Below, piece by piece: positions 29,268-56,034 of a stretch of 64,000 bases of DNA (position 1 is its first letter; every line of letters starts with the position of its first letter). The notes below the pieces were generated by a model. The model was not told where the DNA came from and made no database searches. It was given only the letters and a program-made list of their open reading frames with translations. Both the position numbers and the translations under genes were made by a program. This DNA comes from Methanobrevibacter sp. (GTDB taxonomy: Archaea > Methanobacteriota > Methanobacteria > Methanobacteriales > Methanobacteriaceae). The stretch spans positions 1 through 64,000 of the forward strand of contig NZ_JAFRSC010000019.1 in assembly GCF_017427765.1 (NCBI RefSeq). Reading direction: 5' to 3'.

Positions 29268-32200
29268 TTAAAAATTTTCAAAACTAAAGAATCTGACATT
29301 ACCTAAAGTATCTCCAACCACTAATTTATCATCCCGAACATTGACGGAAGTTGCATAAATATCCAGGAAATATGTGTAGGTAGACTCGCCACTTCCAATA
29401 TTCCAGAATTTTAAAGTACCGTCTTCACAAACACTTATAAATTCTTCACCATTAAGTGAAGCGAAGTTAGTTATAGCTTTTTCATTTTCTTTTAAATTAG
29501 TAATATGAGTTCCATCCAAGCCAAATACTCCAATTGTTCCATCATTATAACCTGCAATTAGCTTATCGGATATTACATCCATTTTAGTAATCGGAGATTG
29601 TGAGGATTTTGCAAAATCACTAAGACCATTAGAGTATTTTTGTATTTTTCCATCTTCAAAACCTATGAATACATCAGATGAATTGATTTGACTGCATAAT
29701 GAAGTTGCATTTCCATCCAAATCTTCTTCGCTATTTTCTGTGACTAATTTATTTTTCTCAATGAAAACAGTTCCCAAACTGTTTTGAGTTATATCTACGA
29801 TAGGATCAGGATTTGTTTTATAATCTTTAGCTTCACCGTCACCAATTTGCCAAGTGGATATTTTATTTATTTTCCTACCATCTTTTTCATGCCTTACACC
29901 TGCTGAGAATAATTTTTTATCAGATTCGTCAAATGCAACGCATTCATTACGGAAGTCATTTGAAAACTGGTTATTTTCATCACAGGATTCGTTAGCAAAA
30001 CTCCAGTTATAAAATTCTCCATCCTCTGAAGCAGTAATCATGTTATCGTCTGAAAGAATAATTGATAATACTGATCCCCCATGTTTCATATGGTCGCTGT
30101 CTTCAACTTTTTTATTCAAATCAATGACGTTAATGTCATTGTTTTTATTTCCAATTACTACCCATCTGTCACTGCCATTAGTGAAATATTCAATTGACTG
30201 TGAAGATTTGATACCTGTCTGAATTTCAGTTGCTTTTGTAAAATTAGGTTTTTTAGGATTTGGAATATCCCATTCATTCAATACGCCCATTTCAGACATT
30301 GTGATTATTTTATCTTCTTTTTCAATAGTAATTGCATTGGCAAATTTATCATTTAAACTTGAAGTGAAAACTTCATCTATACTCTGTCCGCTTTCGGAGT
30401 TTTTAAGAGTATTCCAGAATTTCATCTGACCGTTTTCAGAAATCAAAGTTAAAAATCTTTTATTCAATCCCATGAATTTGATATCTCCGCTGGAATCCAT
30501 CTGGGTTGCAAAGCTTTTATCATCACTTTCATCACCACCGATTTCATGCTGGTGATGCTGGTTGTATGCTTTTCTCTTTTCATATACATCCCAGCCGTCA
30601 ACCTCTTTTTCATCACAAACCAGAATGGCTTCGTTACGTCTTGGAACCAGAATTTGATTATAATCTTTTGCATCAATAGGTTCTGTTTTGATTTGTTCTG
30701 ATTTTATATCAATGGAAAATACTCCATTATGGGAAGATGCATAAATTTTTCCATATGTTTTGGAAATGTAAATATCAGTGATTTCTGATTTAATGTCATA
30801 TGTATTGATAACCTTTTTATCGGCGATATTCCACCGTTTTACAATACCCTCTTTTGATGCTACAACCATTTCCTTATCATCATTGTCCAGAATGATTTTA
30901 ATTATTTCGGAGTTTTCTTTACCAATAACATCGAGATAATTATCATTTAACCTGTAAAGGTTGAGTTTACCGTCATCAGTTCCAATGATCAATTTATTAT
31001 CTGAAGTCAAAACGATTGCAGTTGCACTTCTACCATCAGCTTTAATTCTTTTGATAATGGAACTTTTTGGTGAATAAAGTGCATTGGTTGTTGATTTTAA
31101 CCATTTATCCTGAGTTTTATTTTCCAACTCATCAAGCAGTCCCTGAACAACTTCGTCATCAATTTCACACATCCTTGCCTGCAATTGAGGTGGAAGCTGG
31201 TTTTTATTATCTTTAAGTACAGGTGAAGACAGCTCCAATGCTCTGCCAATCAACTCAATTGAGGAATCCTCCTCTTCAGAGGTGTTATACTGATAATCAG
31301 AAACCAAATTATAAACGTCTGATAAATCAAGCTTATTTTTTATAAATGAATAAGATGAAAGTGTTTTATCCAATGTGTCTGACTGTCCGCACTCAAACAA
31401 GTGATATGGAAGTTCATTATAAGGTCTAAGCTCATTTCCTTTAAATGAATAATTTTCATCAGGGTCTGCCTGTTTTTTAAAGTAATCAGCCAATAATTTA
31501 TTGATTTCAATGTTTGAAATGCCATATCTGTTTTTTGTAGCCAAATCAAAACTTTCATAGAAAAAGTCATGTCTTGCCTCTTTAATAGCCATGAATGGAC
31601 GGACTTGCCTTATAAATATCCTGATTGAATCCTGAATCTCCTTTTCATTAAGTGTGGTTTCATTTTTAATTATGCTTACAAGCTCCTCTTCGGATAATCC
31701 ATATCTTGAATAAGCCATTAATGCAAATAGTAACGGAACAATATTGTCTCCCTTAATCAGTTTTTCATCATTTTCAAGTCTTTCTAAAACCTGGTCAAAT
31801 GCGGACAATGGTGAATCACCAAAACTTCCGATTTTCTCTTTTAACTGGTCAAATGAACCGAATACTCTCAGTTCGGCAAGCAAAATCTTTAGGAATAATG
31901 GGTTTTTTGATCCTTCGAATTTGCAGATTTCATTAATTTGAGTTTCATCAAGTTCTTTTAGGTAGTTTTTGAGATATGCTCTGATTAATTCTTTTTTACC
32001 GTTATCATCAAGCTTTTCAATCTCAAAACTATATTTATCAGAGATATAACTTCTGTTTTTAATCTTATCCAATTCAAAAGTGTAATTCTCATCATTCTTA
32101 TCTTCTTTAATACTTGCAATGATTTTTAAATTGTCTGGAAGTTCATCGAACCATTTCAGCATATCCATTCCATTTTCCATCTGATTTACAGCGTCGATAA

Positions 32201-33437
32201 TGATGAGTGATTCATCTTTAGCTATTTCCTTTAGAATTTCAGACATGTTTCTTTTTAAATCATCAATATTGGATAATTCCAAATCTTCAGGCAGTTCAAT
32301 TTTGGATTCTTCGATGATTGATTTCCATAAAGAATAAGGGTTTGAACTTAAATTTGAAGCTCCACAGAATCTTTTATACAATTTTACATCACTATTTTTT
32401 TCTTCAAAATCAGTGACAAATTTTGCAAGAAGCATTGTTTTACCGTAACCTGCCTCTGCACTAACCAAACAAATTTTATTTTCGCCAGAATCATTTATAT
32501 AATCAGTTAATTTATTTGAGTAAGTAGGACGTGCGATATAACCTTCACTGTTCAAGTAACAGAAAATTTCCTGCTGATTTAAATCTTTTTCAAATTCTGT
32601 TTCATCCTGAATTTCAATGTTGTCAGGAAAAGCCTCAGTCAATTGTTTTTTAAGCTGATTGATTAAAACATCTTTTAAAGATTCCTCACCACATTTAAAA
32701 TTGGTTAATCTTCCCATACCTTCGCCGTTTTCAAAATGAGAAAGTTCAGGAAGTTCCAATGTTTCATCCCACTCTCCTTTATAATAGGTTAAATCAACAT
32801 GAATCCTGTCTTCAGCACTTCTGGATTCATTTAGTTTAGCTTCCTCTTCTGCTCTTTTAATAATTTTTTCTTTAATTTCTTCTAGCTTTTCATCAGCATG
32901 AGCAGGATCATCGGCAGAATTATTAGTGTAAATTTCTTTTTGAGCAGGAGTTAATTTTGACAGATAGTCATCATCTCTAAAGAAAAATAAAGTATGCTGA
33001 GTTGGAGGACATGTATTTTCGCTTCCTTCAACAATTCTATACATTGGAGATAAAAGAGAATGTTCTATTTCCATTTCGGTTACTGATCTGTCAGTATCCT
33101 CCTTTTTAATCAAATCATCGATTGCAGGATAAATTTCCTTTGTTTCATCATTAATATCTTCATTGAAATCAGGAACCCATCCTCTACGCTGACCTAAGAA
33201 ACATAAGAAAAATGGACGACTTTTATCGATGTGTCTAAGACATGTTCCGACAGTCGCTTTGTTTTCTGTGTCTTCTTCTTTTACACCCCATCTTAAATCG
33301 ACATCAGATAAGCGAATTTTTCGTCGTTCACACCACTCATTTAATTCAGGAAATACCTCTTTAATAAGGTAATCCCTTTCAGCATGCATATCATTAAAAG
33401 TACTACTGATAAATATTGTTGCCTTTTGCCATTCCAT
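29268..33437 (-). CDS. Large STAND protein: DUF4062 - NACHT-like ATPase - WD40-type propeller
   Basis: 1389 residues. The start (ATIFISSTFNDMHAERDYL, then DVDLRWGV) is DUF4062, also found at the head of animal TEP1 and NWD1. A P-loop ATPase follows with AEAGYGKT (GYGKT 330-334) and Walker B SLIIIDAVNQ near 412, then helical regions to about 780. From about 800 to the end are beta-propeller-like repeats (for example LIIGTDDGKLNLYRL, FISVCEDGTLKFWNI). This is the layout of signal-sensing STAND NTPases, many of which act in antiviral immunity. It likely oligomerises after ligand binding by the propeller. No known nuclease or protease effector is visible. 35 bases separate it from the Cys-rich gene, so they may share a transcript. 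Confidence 0.85.
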   Translation of the reverse strand: MEWQKATIFISSTFNDMHAERDYLIKEVFPELNEWCERRKIRLSDVDLRWGVKEEDTENKATVGTCLRHIDKSRPFFLCFLGQRRGWVPDFNEDINDETKEIYPAIDDLIKKEDTDRSVTEMEIEHSLLSPMYRIVEGSENTCPPTQHTLFFFRDDDYLSKLTPAQKEIYTNNSADDPAHADEKLEEIKEKIIKRAEEEAKLNESRSAEDRIHVDLTYYKGEWDETLELPELSHFENGEGMGRLTNFKCGEESLKDVLINQLKKQLTEAFPDNIEIQDETEFEKDLNQQEIFCYLNSEGYIARPTYSNKLTDYINDSGENKICLVSAEAGYGKTMLLAKFVTDFEEKNSDVKLYKRFCGASNLSSNPYSLWKSIIEESKIELPEDLELSNIDDLKRNMSEILKEIAKDESLIIIDAVNQMENGMDMLKWFDELPDNLKIIASIKEDKNDENYTFELDKIKNRSYISDKYSFEIEKLDDNGKKELIRAYLKNYLKELDETQINEICKFEGSKNPLFLKILLAELRVFGSFDQLKEKIGSFGDSPLSAFDQVLERLENDEKLIKGDNIVPLLFALMAYSRYGLSEEELVSIIKNETTLNEKEIQDSIRIFIRQVRPFMAIKEARHDFFYESFDLATKNRYGISNIEINKLLADYFKKQADPDENYSFKGNELRPYNELPYHLFECGQSDTLDKTLSSYSFIKNKLDLSDVYNLVSDYQYNTSEEEDSSIELIGRALELSSPVLKDNKNQLPPQLQARMCEIDDEVVQGLLDELENKTQDKWLKSTTNALYSPKSSIIKRIKADGRSATAIVLTSDNKLIIGTDDGKLNLYRLNDNYLDVIGKENSEIIKIILDNDDKEMVVASKEGIVKRWNIADKKVINTYDIKSEITDIYISKTYGKIYASSHNGVFSIDIKSEQIKTEPIDAKDYNQILVPRRNEAILVCDEKEVDGWDVYEKRKAYNQHHQHEIGGDESDDKSFATQMDSSGDIKFMGLNKRFLTLISENGQMKFWNTLKNSESGQSIDEVFTSSLNDKFANAITIEKEDKIITMSEMGVLNEWDIPNPKKPNFTKATEIQTGIKSSQSIEYFTNGSDRWVVIGNKNNDINVIDLNKKVEDSDHMKHGGSVLSIILSDDNMITASEDGEFYNWSFANESCDENNQFSNDFRNECVAFDESDKKLFSAGVRHEKDGRKINKISTWQIGDGEAKDYKTNPDPIVDITQNSLGTVFIEKNKLVTENSEEDLDGNATSLCSQINSSDVFIGFEDGKIQKYSNGLSDFAKSSQSPITKMDVISDKLIAGYNDGTIGVFGLDGTHITNLKENEKAITNFASLNGEEFISVCEDGTLKFWNIGSGESTYTYFLDIYATSVNVRDDKLVVGDTLGNVRFFSFENF

Positions 33438-52011: not shown

Positions 52012-55000
52012 TTAGAATGAAATACCTGAATAAATTCCGTGAAGTGTGAAGGAATTTGTATTCCAATTAACTATATTTCCAAATGAATTTCTAGTACTTG
52101 TAGCATCTACAACATACCATTGTCCATCAACTAACACCTGAGCCCAAACGTGACCGTAAGTACTTCCGCTTGAGAATCTGCAAGTTCCGTGAACATATCT
52201 AGCTGCAATACCTGCAGTTCTGTACATGGAAACTAACAGATGAGCTTGGTCTACACAGTTACCTGTTTTTGATGATAAAGTTCCAGCAGCACCATATTTG
52301 GTATTATAATAGAAACTGTATGAAACAGCATCTCTAACATAATTATAAATTGCTCTTGCTTTTTCTAAAGTAGTAGATAAACCAGAAGTTATTGAATTTA
52401 CTGTAGACTTAATGTTACTGTTGTCAATAGGACAATTAGTAGAAGCTTTTAAGTAAGCAGATGTATCGGATTCTGTATTTTTCTGATTTAAACCGGAACC
52501 TGAACCTGTTGTAATAGCAGTACTTCCACTACTACTTGATCCATAAGTAACTACAACATAATTAGGTAAATCTCCATTGGTATTATAGTACGCTAAAATA
52601 CGTGAGAAAGAATCCACCAATTCGGAATAAATTATTTTTCCTACTGCAGATGAAGCATAGTTAGGAGCCAATTTATTGGTACTGATGAATTTTGCCACAT
52701 TATTTGCAACAGTTATGTAATTTTCTTTAGTTAACTGTTGGGAACTAATTGTATCACCACTAGGTGATTCTGGAGCGCTGACACCACTGATATAAGCAAT
52801 ATCATTACTGTTTGAGTTACCGATTTGATAAATAGCCTGACTCATCAAATACAAGAATTCAGGCAATTTGAATGTGATGCCTGCTGCTGTAACAGTATTT
52901 GGGAGTTGATTATTATTTGAATAATATGTTTTCAAATTAGTAGCTCCAGTTAAAATATCCTTAATGGAAATTGTTTTAACTGTAGATGTGTCAGGAGTTA
53001 TTGTAGTTTCAGATTTGGTAATTTTACTTATAGATACAGTATTAGGTAATGCGTTATTAGACTTATAGTAAGCTAAAATTCTAGAAAATGCATCAACCAA
53101 GTTTTCATATTTAATATTTCCTAAAGTTGAAGTCGCATAATTAGGAGCCTGTTTATTAGATGAAATAAATGAAGCAACCCTAGTCGCTACATCAACATAA
53201 TCAGCCTTATTTAAATTACCTTCAGATTCTCCAGAAGAACTTGAAGCCGCACTTGCAGATAATACTGAAACTGCAGAAGTCTTACCAGAAGCAAGATTCT
53301 CAATAGATTTTGCCATCATATATAAGAATTGGGAAGTGGAATAAGTTACGCCACCAATACTTACACTGGACGGTACAGCACCGCTTGATGAAATAGTATT
53401 TTTCAAAGTGGTTGCTGCAGTCAAAATATTTGCAAGAGTTACTGATGATCCAGTAGTTGAACTGGAACTGGAAGAACTGGAACTGGATGAACTAGAAGAC
53501 GGATTGACTTTACCAGTTAATGAGTTAAAATTAACTAAGTTAGTTAAACCCCATCTGAATATAATTACTCCAGTTGCTTTAGAATTGACAGCAGTTTGAG
53601 CGTCATTAGTTATTTCACTTGAAGACAATTTTACTACATTATCATCTGAAGCATATCCTTGTAAACCAGCCCAGATTTGAGCTCCTTTAGAATTATCAAC
53701 AAACCATTTTGTTACAGTACCAATCCAGGATGTAGTCTTTTTATAATTTCCCTTATATATCATAGGGACAACAACGTCCATATACTGACTGATTGCTGAT
53801 AAGTCCTGACCGTAATAATAAATATTACTTGTAGTTTCAGGCATGACTGCACATGAAACAATGAGCTTGGAATTTAAAGCGTGAAGAGATTCACTGGCTA
53901 ATTTTGCAAATTGAGAGATTGCTTGAGTACCTCCTGAAGTTTTATAAGCTGTACCCGGATATCTCATATAATCAAAGTGAATACCTGCAACACCTTTAAG
54001 TGCAGCGTATGTTTTTGCTTCGGATATTACTTCATTGAAGTATGCTGTATTTGCAGCTCCGTTTTTAACAGGATTAATCCAGTTACCATCATAGAAAGTC
54101 TGCATCCAAATATGAACTCTCATTCCGTAAGTATTAGCAGAAGCAATCCATGATTCAACAGCAGATTTACCCCATTTAGTAATTGCATAATAGTTTAAAA
54201 ATATATCTGAAGTTCCTTGAGCAGCTAAACCAGTTAAAGAAACACTTTTCATGTCTCCACCGAAAAGCCAATATCCATATCCTCCTAATGTAGTTTTCTT
54301 GGAAATGGTTATGGATTTAGTTAAACTGCTAGGCTCATAATTATCGCCTGTAGCTTCATATTTAAATACTGCAGAGTAATCTCCAGCACCTAAATTTAGA
54401 TTAAATGTTGCATAACCATTTGCAGAAGTGGTTGCAGAATATGTTTTTGAATTAATTGTTAACTTAACGGTCTTACCGGATAATCCTTTATTATTTGAAT
54501 CTTTCAATAGAACTTTCAAAGTTTGTGACCCTTCATTAAGTGTACCGCTACTCCAGACTATAGAAGTTTTTGTTTTATCTTTAACTGTTATAGTTGAAGA
54601 TCCGGTTTTTGCATTGACTTTAGAGTCACCGTTGAATTTATAAGCAATAGTATATTGACCAGCGGCTAAACCAATCGGCAAAGAAGCAATACCCTTACTG
54701 TCAGTAGTTCCAGTATAAGACTTGCTACCTACAGTAAAAATAACAGTTTTCTTTTCTAAAGGAACACTGCCTGATGTTAAAGCGACTTTAAACACAGAGT
54801 CTGCACCATCACCAAAGATAGTGGAACTTTTTACTGTGAATGTAGGAGTCTTAGAAGGAATTATATAAACTTTATTTGATGCACTTGATGCCTTATAGAA
54901 ACTGTTTCCATCAAATGCGTATTTTACAGTGTATACCCCATTATTTAAAGTAGGTAACTTAAGTGAAGCAACACCGTTACTATCAGTTTTTGATGTATAA

Positions 55001-56034
55001 GTTTTACCATTGATTGTAAATTTGATAGTTTTTCCAGAACCTGGTGCATAGCCTAATCCATTAAGTAAAGTAACTTTAATAGTTTTACTTTCACTATTAA
55101 GGAAAGTGTATGAAGTAGTAGTTAATTTAGAAGTAGTAGATCTGACCACTTTAACAGTGTTGGTTAAAGTCAAACCGTCTGTGTTATAAGAAATCATCTT
55201 ATAGCTACCAACACCAAGACTTGTCATTGAAAGACTGGCTACACCATTACTATTAGTTTTTGCAGTATAAGTTTTACCATTAATCCTAAACTTAATATTT
55301 TTGTTAGCTAAAGCTTTACCGTCACTTTTTAAGAATTTTGCGGTAAATTTCTTTCCATCAGTATATACCTTAGTAACATCATTTGCCTGAATAGTTGTCA
55401 ATACCTTACATGAAGTAGTTAATCTATAGTTTGTAACTGTATTTAAAGCAGTGATCTGATAAGTTCCAGGTTTAAGATTAATTGCTAAAGAAGCCACTCC
55501 GTTTGCATTAGTTTTGATTGTATAAGTTTTGCCGACTACAGTTACTTTTACATTTGTATTTTTCAATAGATTTCCTTTTAAATCGGTAAATGTAGCGCTA
55601 TATTGAGTGCTTCCTTTATAATATTTAGTAATATCTTTTGCTTTGATGGTATCTGAAAGTTTTACAGTAGAAGAAACATCACTGGCTGCACCATAGACTT
55701 CAACATCTGAACCTGCAGCTAAACCAGTAACCCCATTTGCACCATCAATCGAATTCATCGTGTTAGTTGATAAAGTATTTGAATTTTCAGATTCTAAAAC
55801 TTCTTCACTTGATAGAGAAACTTTAGATGAATCATTATCAACACTTGAATAACTATATACAGAACTTTCTGATGAATCAGCAGTTTTCTCTAATGGGACT
55901 GAAACATCTGATGTATCATCTACTAAGCTAGTAGTATATGAATCTGTAACATTTACTTCACTTGCTGAAATAGCACTAACTGAAAAAATTACGATAAGCG
56001 CTAAAAAAACAGTGAGTAATAATTGTTTGTTCAA
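52012..56034 (-). CDS. Secreted wall enzyme: Ig-like repeats, glycosidase-like barrel, pseudomurein-binding repeats, C71/transglutaminase peptidase
   Basis: 1340 residues from TTG 56034, GGAGGT upstream. Signal peptide 1-26 (LLLTVFLALIVIFSVSAISA). Ser/Thr-rich linker, then five Ig-like repeats (about 120-580) each with a (G/S)K(T/S)Y(T/S) strand and (A/S)NG(V/Y)A. Residues about 582-838 are a TIM-barrel glycosidase-like domain (GHL10/DUF187-like: GIHFDYMRYPG, VVVPMIY). A poly-Ser linker near 850 leads to four pseudomurein-binding-type repeats (ILTAATTLK...QFLYMMAKSI; VDAFSRILAYYKSN...). The last 150 residues are transglutaminase-like with GNCVDQAH (Cys near 1259), YGHVWAQV (His) and VVDATS (Asp), as in pseudomurein endoisopeptidases of family C71. 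Likely a wall-remodelling autolysin outside the cell. Confidence 0.85.
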   Translation of the reverse strand: MNKQLLLTVFLALIVIFSVSAISASEVNVTDSYTTSLVDDTSDVSVPLEKTADSSESSVYSYSSVDNDSSKVSLSSEEVLESENSNTLSTNTMNSIDGANGVTGLAAGSDVEVYGAASDVSSTVKLSDTIKAKDITKYYKGSTQYSATFTDLKGNLLKNTNVKVTVVGKTYTIKTNANGVASLAINLKPGTYQITALNTVTNYRLTTSCKVLTTIQANDVTKVYTDGKKFTAKFLKSDGKALANKNIKFRINGKTYTAKTNSNGVASLSMTSLGVGSYKMISYNTDGLTLTNTVKVVRSTTSKLTTTSYTFLNSESKTIKVTLLNGLGYAPGSGKTIKFTINGKTYTSKTDSNGVASLKLPTLNNGVYTVKYAFDGNSFYKASSASNKVYIIPSKTPTFTVKSSTIFGDGADSVFKVALTSGSVPLEKKTVIFTVGSKSYTGTTDSKGIASLPIGLAAGQYTIAYKFNGDSKVNAKTGSSTITVKDKTKTSIVWSSGTLNEGSQTLKVLLKDSNNKGLSGKTVKLTINSKTYSATTSANGYATFNLNLGAGDYSAVFKYEATGDNYEPSSLTKSITISKKTTLGGYGYWLFGGDMKSVSLTGLAAQGTSDIFLNYYAITKWGKSAVESWIASANTYGMRVHIWMQTFYDGNWINPVKNGAANTAYFNEVISEAKTYAALKGVAGIHFDYMRYPGTAYKTSGGTQAISQFAKLASESLHALNSKLIVSCAVMPETTSNIYYYGQDLSAISQYMDVVVPMIYKGNYKKTTSWIGTVTKWFVDNSKGAQIWAGLQGYASDDNVVKLSSSEITNDAQTAVNSKATGVIIFRWGLTNLVNFNSLTGKVNPSSSSSSSSSSSSSSTTGSSVTLANILTAATTLKNTISSSGAVPSSVSIGGVTYSTSQFLYMMAKSIENLASGKTSAVSVLSASAASSSSGESEGNLNKADYVDVATRVASFISSNKQAPNYATSTLGNIKYENLVDAFSRILAYYKSNNALPNTVSISKITKSETTITPDTSTVKTISIKDILTGATNLKTYYSNNNQLPNTVTAAGITFKLPEFLYLMSQAIYQIGNSNSNDIAYISGVSAPESPSGDTISSQQLTKENYITVANNVAKFISTNKLAPNYASSAVGKIIYSELVDSFSRILAYYNTNGDLPNYVVVTYGSSSSGSTAITTGSGSGLNQKNTESDTSAYLKASTNCPIDNSNIKSTVNSITSGLSTTLEKARAIYNYVRDAVSYSFYYNTKYGAAGTLSSKTGNCVDQAHLLVSMYRTAGIAARYVHGTCRFSSGSTYGHVWAQVLVDGQWYVVDATSTRNSFGNIVNWNTNSFTLHGIYSGISF

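Follow-up and report, generated by a model that had tools for sequence, protein, structure and literature searches.

The gene at positions 52012–56034 on the reverse strand of a 64,000-nucleotide stretch of Methanobrevibacter sp. DNA (NZ_JAFRSC010000019.1, positions 1 to 64,000; hereafter the window) probably encodes a secreted, two-headed wall-remodelling autolysin of pseudomurein-walled methanogens. In this protein a barrel domain would hydrolyse the pseudomurein glycan, while a C-terminal domain would act on the peptide cross-bridge. The glycan-cutting step is inferred, and of the candidates for a pseudomurein glycan-cutting enzyme the barrel family is the best to date. A sequence-only reading of the window had proposed a secreted single chain at this place; the open reading frame (ORF) has exactly these coordinates, encodes 1340 amino acids (aa) and begins with a signal peptide called by eye.

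In the proposed mechanism the protein would be exported, and its four pseudomurein-binding repeat (PMBR) units would then dock it on pseudomurein. The barrel would hydrolyse a glycosidic bond beside an N-acetylated sugar of the chain of N-acetylglucosamine (GlcNAc) and N-acetyltalosaminuronic acid (TalNAcA); D688 would be the acid that catalyses the reaction or stabilises an oxazolinium ion, and E733 would probably be the acid/base. The target of the C-terminal Cys-His-Asp domain would be the peptide cross-bridge, which it would probably cleave in the manner of PeiP, and the two activities together would open the mesh as growth, division or turnover requires. Viruses would use the same barrel as part of an endolysin. 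The features of the gene are as follows.

52012..56034 (-): whole ORF, 1340 aa, with signal peptide, Ig-like repeats, TIM barrel, Ser-rich linker, four PMBR units and transglutaminase-fold domain
55960..56034 (-): signal peptide, aa 1–25 (LNKQLLLTVFLALIVIFSVSAISAS), by-eye call
54289..55692 (-): Ig-like repeats (Big_3_5/Big_1/MG4 type), about aa 115–582, from Pfam
53512..54288 (-): TIM barrel (DUF4015-type glycosidase-like domain), aa 583–841, from PF13200, AlphaFold2 and Foldseek
53971..53973 (-): D688, candidate catalytic Asp, C-terminal end of strand 4
53836..53838 (-): E733, candidate second acid, in an MPE motif just after strand 5
53449..53508 (-): Ser-rich linker, about aa 843–862, from the sequence
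53302..53430 (-): PMBR unit 1, aa 869–911, from Pfam, model and local hidden Markov model (HMM)
53068..53202 (-): PMBR unit 2, aa 945–989, same sources
52828..52959 (-): PMBR unit 3, aa 1026–1069, same sources
52588..52722 (-): PMBR unit 4, aa 1105–1149, same sources
52102..52407 (-): transglutaminase-fold domain (Transglut_core; PeiP/PeiW-like fold), aa 1210–1311, from Pfam, sequence and fold
52255..52257 (-): C1260, candidate nucleophile, by sequence comparison
52150..52152 (-): H1295, by sequence comparison
52105..52107 (-): D1310, transglutaminase-type Asp position, where PeiW has Ser

The barrel and the C-terminal domain

The barrel had been described as GHL10-like on the strength of the motif GIHFDYMRYPG (aa 684–694). 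The barrel is real and its likeness to GHL10 holds at the level of fold, but by sequence its family is DUF4015 (PF13200, ‘putative glycosyl hydrolase’), matched with 38.8 bits against a cut-off of 27 over 123 of 313 profile positions (112–234). For GHL10 (PF02638), Pfam gives no match to the window protein at E<=1, and one paralogue scores 21.8 against a cut-off of 27.9. In the fold prediction that the sequence-only reading had named as a check, an AlphaFold2 model made with 49 relatives is a confident eight-strand barrel (mean pLDDT 93.4, pTM 0.91), and the solved structures nearest to it in Foldseek are PgaB, Cwp19 and SleL (E 6e-9 to 1e-8, TM ~0.67; 5oq3, E 1.4e-8). The fold neighbours include wall-glycan enzymes (Cwp19 and the spore cortex-lytic SleL), together with the GlcN/GlcNAc glycosidase domain of PgaB and GH18 chitinases. 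Direct phmmer searches of the barrel against the PDB give weak matches only and a family profile was needed; it matches the DUF4015 structure 4s1a best (E 5e-9), and also GH18 enzymes including SleL, GH18 chitinases and GH18-fold lectins.

All 116 non-redundant homologues have D688, which is thus invariant, and 114 of them have E733; Y689, R691, W643 and Y760 are likewise invariant over these divergent members. Invariant positions are over-represented on the C-terminal, catalytic face of the barrel (13/21, Fisher p 0.008). Conserved carboxylates on this face are expected of glycoside hydrolases in general, and in the model D688 and E733 are both placed there, at C-terminal strand ends; a cleft lacking any acidic pair, which the sequence-only reading had named as fatal to its proposal, is therefore not what was found. 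D797 was dropped as a catalytic candidate, as two bacterial copies lack it.

The ORF starts with TTG, with a Shine-Dalgarno-like GGAGGT upstream. Pfam finds PMBR (105 bits, five stretches), Transglut_core (88.4 bits) and several Ig-like families in its product. The predicted four repeats of pseudomurein-binding type were recovered by both the model and the local HMM, each unit having about 45 aa in a helix-strand-strand-helix order. At least three units are the criterion for pseudomurein binding (PMC3124540), and the window protein has four.

The transglutaminase-type triad predicted for the C-terminal domain corresponds to C1260/H1295/D1310, whose columns are invariant in 23 relatives, and its Asp is not in the PeiW position, which lies three columns before that of D1310. 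The assignment to C71-type peptidases stands in part: the nearest fold is PeiP, but the window protein falls below the cut-off for peptidase C71 (PF12386; 17.7 versus 22, with one homologue, L073, above it at 24.6) and far exceeds that of Transglut_core (PF01841; cut-off 23), with Cys, His and Asp present. The domain is hence described as a transglutaminase-fold sister of C71. The model of the C-terminal half (PMBR plus catalytic domain) has a pLDDT of 81 and PeiP (8z4f_A, E 1e-9) as its top Foldseek match, followed by a Cytophaga transglutaminase-like protein and then by the PeiW catalytic domain (4.7e-5). Sequence searches with the transglutaminase domain also match PeiW, at lower strength than the fold comparison.

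It is quite possible, on the other hand, that this half makes the Glu-Lys cross-link, so that the protein would couple glycan opening to new cross-linking in synthesis or remodelling. Exported transglutaminases have been proposed to close pseudomurein cross-links, as cross-linkers and not hydrolases (PMC11915815), and a second group has proposed that transglutaminases make cross-links (PMC2812497, legend of Figure S6). The Transglut_core score of 88 bits as compared with 17.7 for C71, the transglutaminase-type Asp, and the presence of the domain in 144 of 151 genomes, including complete genomes that lack the barrel, all fit such a role; the match of the PMBR plus catalytic half to a hydrolase, the sequence match to PeiW and the homologue above the C71 cut-off do not. 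Because PeiP is the best fold match, cleavage rather than making of peptide cross-links is placed slightly ahead for this half.

Occurrence in methanogens, viruses and rumen bacteria

A single-sequence search detects the barrel in 133 of 151 genomes of the order; a profile search detects it in 134 of 152 genomes of the phylum, covering 20 of 20 genera. Its combination with PMBR and transglutaminase spans family f3 to Methanobrevibacter. In genus g13 (5/6 genomes searched: G131, G133–G136) there are barrels, up to seven, and no match to the window transglutaminase at E<=1e-15.

Eight IMG/VR contigs carry the barrel, and its fusions to PMBR in viral contigs are of three kinds: some consist of these two parts alone, some include a C39 peptidase as well, and some have a C39 peptidase encoded by the overlapping gene. 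In L095, which has terminase and portal genes, a 334-aa PMBR-barrel gene directly follows the portal gene; the barrel there occupies the place of the peptidase, since the first 80 residues of the protein match the PHROG of pseudomurein endoisopeptidase. In L096, also with terminase and portal, a PMBR-C39 gene (768–1829) overlaps a PMBR-barrel gene by 10 bases, and the pair (768–2785) is, as read from its sequence, a predicted two-enzyme lysis cassette. In L089 and L094, barrel-PMBR proteins are encoded just before an integrase. On the contig of the window itself (C31, 90.8–92.6 kb; L070:12271–14100), a barrel-PMBR-C39 gene without signal peptide adjoins a fibre-like gene at the contig end, and is probably the endolysin gene of a partial provirus. 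PeiR, whose lytic activity has been shown by experiment, also belongs to class C39 (PMC6189367). That the barrel is repeatedly combined with unrelated wall peptidases speaks most strongly for an attack on the same wall. A tblastn search of phage records gave no barrel match, and BFVD held no methanogen-virus relative of the barrel, only generic viral glycosidase folds.

The barrel is also present in ten bacterial contigs from metagenome-assembled genomes (MAGs), at 57–62% identity to the window; a search of the class Kiritimatiellae adds two at 50%, and 11 of its 346 genomes have the barrel. Nine of the copies (L122, L128, L130, L131, L134, L135, L137, L186 and L187), from rumen Kiritimatiellae/Verrucomicrobia/Lentisphaerae MAGs, are barrel-only proteins of about 300 aa that are apparently secreted, and the bacterial copies keep the catalytic residues. 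These copies make up one clade (100/100), which groups with window-type Methanobrevibacter barrels (98/97), while approximately unbiased (AU) tests on the exact branching of the clade are marginal (p 0.07 and 0.04). The placement of one bacterial clade within the Methanobrevibacter radiation is solid, that of the exact donor branch is not; the simplest reading of the sequences is that there was probably one archaea-to-bacteria transfer, in the rumen, from a Methanobrevibacter-like donor. Contamination as the source was rejected on the GC content of the barrel genes (0.51–0.59, in contigs of 0.55–0.65), neighbouring genes for peptide deformylase, Clp ATPase and RtcA/RtcB, the single clade and the 11 of 346 genomes. 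A Coriobacteriaceae copy (L139) was treated as a mis-binned contig and not as a separate bacterial host because of its zero-length branch beside the Kiritimatiellae copies. Tentatively, and against the odds as judged here, rumen Kiritimatiellae may have captured the Methanobrevibacter barrel by one transfer, added a bacterial signal peptide, and now export it to cleave the pseudomurein glycan of methanogens around them, as food or in antagonism; the bacterial copies would then be enzymes aimed at an archaeal wall.

The window gene lies on a 95.6 kb contig, and the same genome has two further barrel genes and two barrel-less PMBR-transglutaminase genes. The gene order thermosome / window gene / DtxR-type regulator / tRNA endonuclease / TrpRS / membrane gene / threonine synthase is kept in >30 Methanobrevibacter loci; the window gene is therefore old and vertically inherited, not a recent cassette, and, its orthologues being syntenic, the domain combination is not a chance pattern. 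Elsewhere in this genome (contig C59, L071:3403–6262) a PGA_cap (capsule-type) gene lies directly upstream of an Ig-barrel gene without PMBR, and tandem pairs of such Ig-barrel genes (~600 plus ~500 aa) occur in many Methanobrevibacter contigs. At 29268–33437 (-) the window also encodes a 1389-aa STAND-type nucleoside triphosphatase (DUF4062 / AAA-NACHT / WD40), with an architecture often seen in defence or signalling, which none of the PADLOC models matches.

The proposed substrate and activity of the barrel

The proposal that the barrel is a candidate pseudomurein-glycan enzyme has been strengthened along independent lines, namely its fold, the conserved D688 and E733, its near-universal occurrence in Methanobacteria and the viral PMBR-barrel proteins with C39, with catalysis itself inferred. 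Several observations weigh against it. The GH18 motif DxxDxDxE with its strand-4 catalytic Glu was not found (the barrel reads DY[MIL]R, with M/I/L or R at the Glu position), so that catalysis is not guaranteed and E733 is given the acid/base role provisionally. The likeness to solved folds is distant, with ~10% identity, and both the activity and the bond cut are predictions. Five near-complete genomes, all with transglutaminase, lack the barrel (G021, G023 and G037 of genus g9; G143 and G145 of genus g19), and G023 is a closed genome of 2.9 Mb; the barrel is therefore common but dispensable, and not essential everywhere. Its absence may correlate with the substrate, since the wall of M. ruminantium is reported to have GalNAc instead of GlcNAc. 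Finally, among 119 complete archaeal ORFs with the barrel (a sample biased to Methanobrevibacter, and scored with a local PMBR model that misses some Pfam-found units), 41 also carry PMBR and transglutaminase, another 10 carry PMBR without transglutaminase, and the remaining 68 carry neither, many of the last being paralogues with Ig repeats.

These PMBR-free paralogues, and the adjacency of an Ig-barrel gene to a PGA_cap gene in the genome of the window, would suit a real glycosidase acting on another envelope glycan (a wall teichoic-like polymer, a capsule or a protein glycan) instead of the pseudomurein backbone. Such a target is nevertheless unlikely, as the barrel occurs in 20 of 20 genera and, in cellular as well as viral proteins, is joined to PMBR and to three kinds of wall-linked domain. 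Still less probable is a catalytically dead glycan-binding module resembling the chitinase-like lectins: the non-acidic residue at the GH18 Glu position and the GH18-fold lectins among the profile matches would agree with it, but D688, Y689, R691, W643 and Y760 are invariant and E733 is kept at 98% over 116 divergent members, the secreted barrel-only bacterial proteins retain these residues, and the endolysin-like protein that carries the barrel in L095 and in L096 has no other recognisable catalytic domain. A weapon against bacterial peptidoglycan, which the fold neighbours cut and for which other archaeal hydrolases are reported (PMC12356512), is very improbable given the PMBR anchoring to the own wall, the viral use against methanogens and the vertical inheritance in genera beyond the gut.

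Significance and comparison with known systems

If the autolysin reading is true, a beta-1,3 glycan cutter would supply the archaeal counterpart of lysozyme and autolysins that has been missing. Such an enzyme would offer tools for lysing lysozyme-resistant methanogens (for DNA extraction, fluorescence in situ hybridization and genetics), a starting point for methane mitigation and a way to study wall growth and division. The family is sharply defined by its residues, folds and viral and bacterial copies, which makes it directly testable. As far as the sources show, the fold class is known, and novelty lies in the target polymer, the pairing in viruses and the capture by bacteria. No pseudomurein glycan hydrolase was found in the searchable literature, which leaves out most subscription-journal papers, so that an earlier report is possible. 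According to PMC2989375, PeiW and PeiP cleave nothing but the peptide bond, and pseudomurein resists lysozyme; the statement of the sequence-only reading that known pseudomurein hydrolases are peptide-cutting only and that glycan activity is poorly described is borne out in that literature for PeiW, PeiP and PeiR.

Within DUF4015, the structure 4s1a has GQ and PMxY motifs in common with the window barrel and lacks the MPE motif; no function of any DUF4015 member was found in the searchable literature, where the one mention is among Bacillus anthracis sporulation genes. The C-terminal domain of PgaB is the top fold match of the barrel (E 5.6e-9) at 8% identity, but PgaB has no PMBR wall anchoring. 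Its substrate is the partly deacetylated poly-GlcNAc of biofilms. The group III adhesin-like proteins of M. smithii and M. stadtmanae, like the window protein, have Ig-like repeats, PMBR and a C-terminal transglutaminase (PMC11532034). They are filed as adhesins, and the passages of that paper on them do not propose a wall-enzyme role; one M. smithii adhesin-like protein is given there a ‘putative glycosyl hydrolase domain’ with no role assigned.

PeiW and PeiP (C71) share with the window protein the PMBR repeats and a transglutaminase-fold Cys/His domain, but are viral, have neither barrel nor Ig repeats and differ in the position of the catalytic Asp. PeiR, the phi-mru lysin, combines PMBR with a C39 peptidase, as do L070:12271–14100 and L096:768–1829, and is described without a barrel (PMC6189367), unlike L070:12271–14100. 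Cwp19 of C. difficile (GHL10/PF02638), a proven peptidoglycan lytic transglycosylase (PMC6016235), has 13% identity to the window barrel, which PF02638 does not match and in which strand 5 is followed by an additional conserved Glu; the substrate polymers differ, and lytic transglycosylase chemistry is not assumed for the window barrel. Both barrels have an Asp-Tyr ending strand 4, a Trp in strand 3 and a Tyr in strand 6, and in the Cwp19 structure one Asp and the following Tyr after strand 4 are key, so a single Asp can suffice (PMC5765458). Like the window protein, Cwp19 is secreted and has its barrel fused to wall-binding repeats, and it cuts the glycan of the wall (PMC6016235, PMC5765458).

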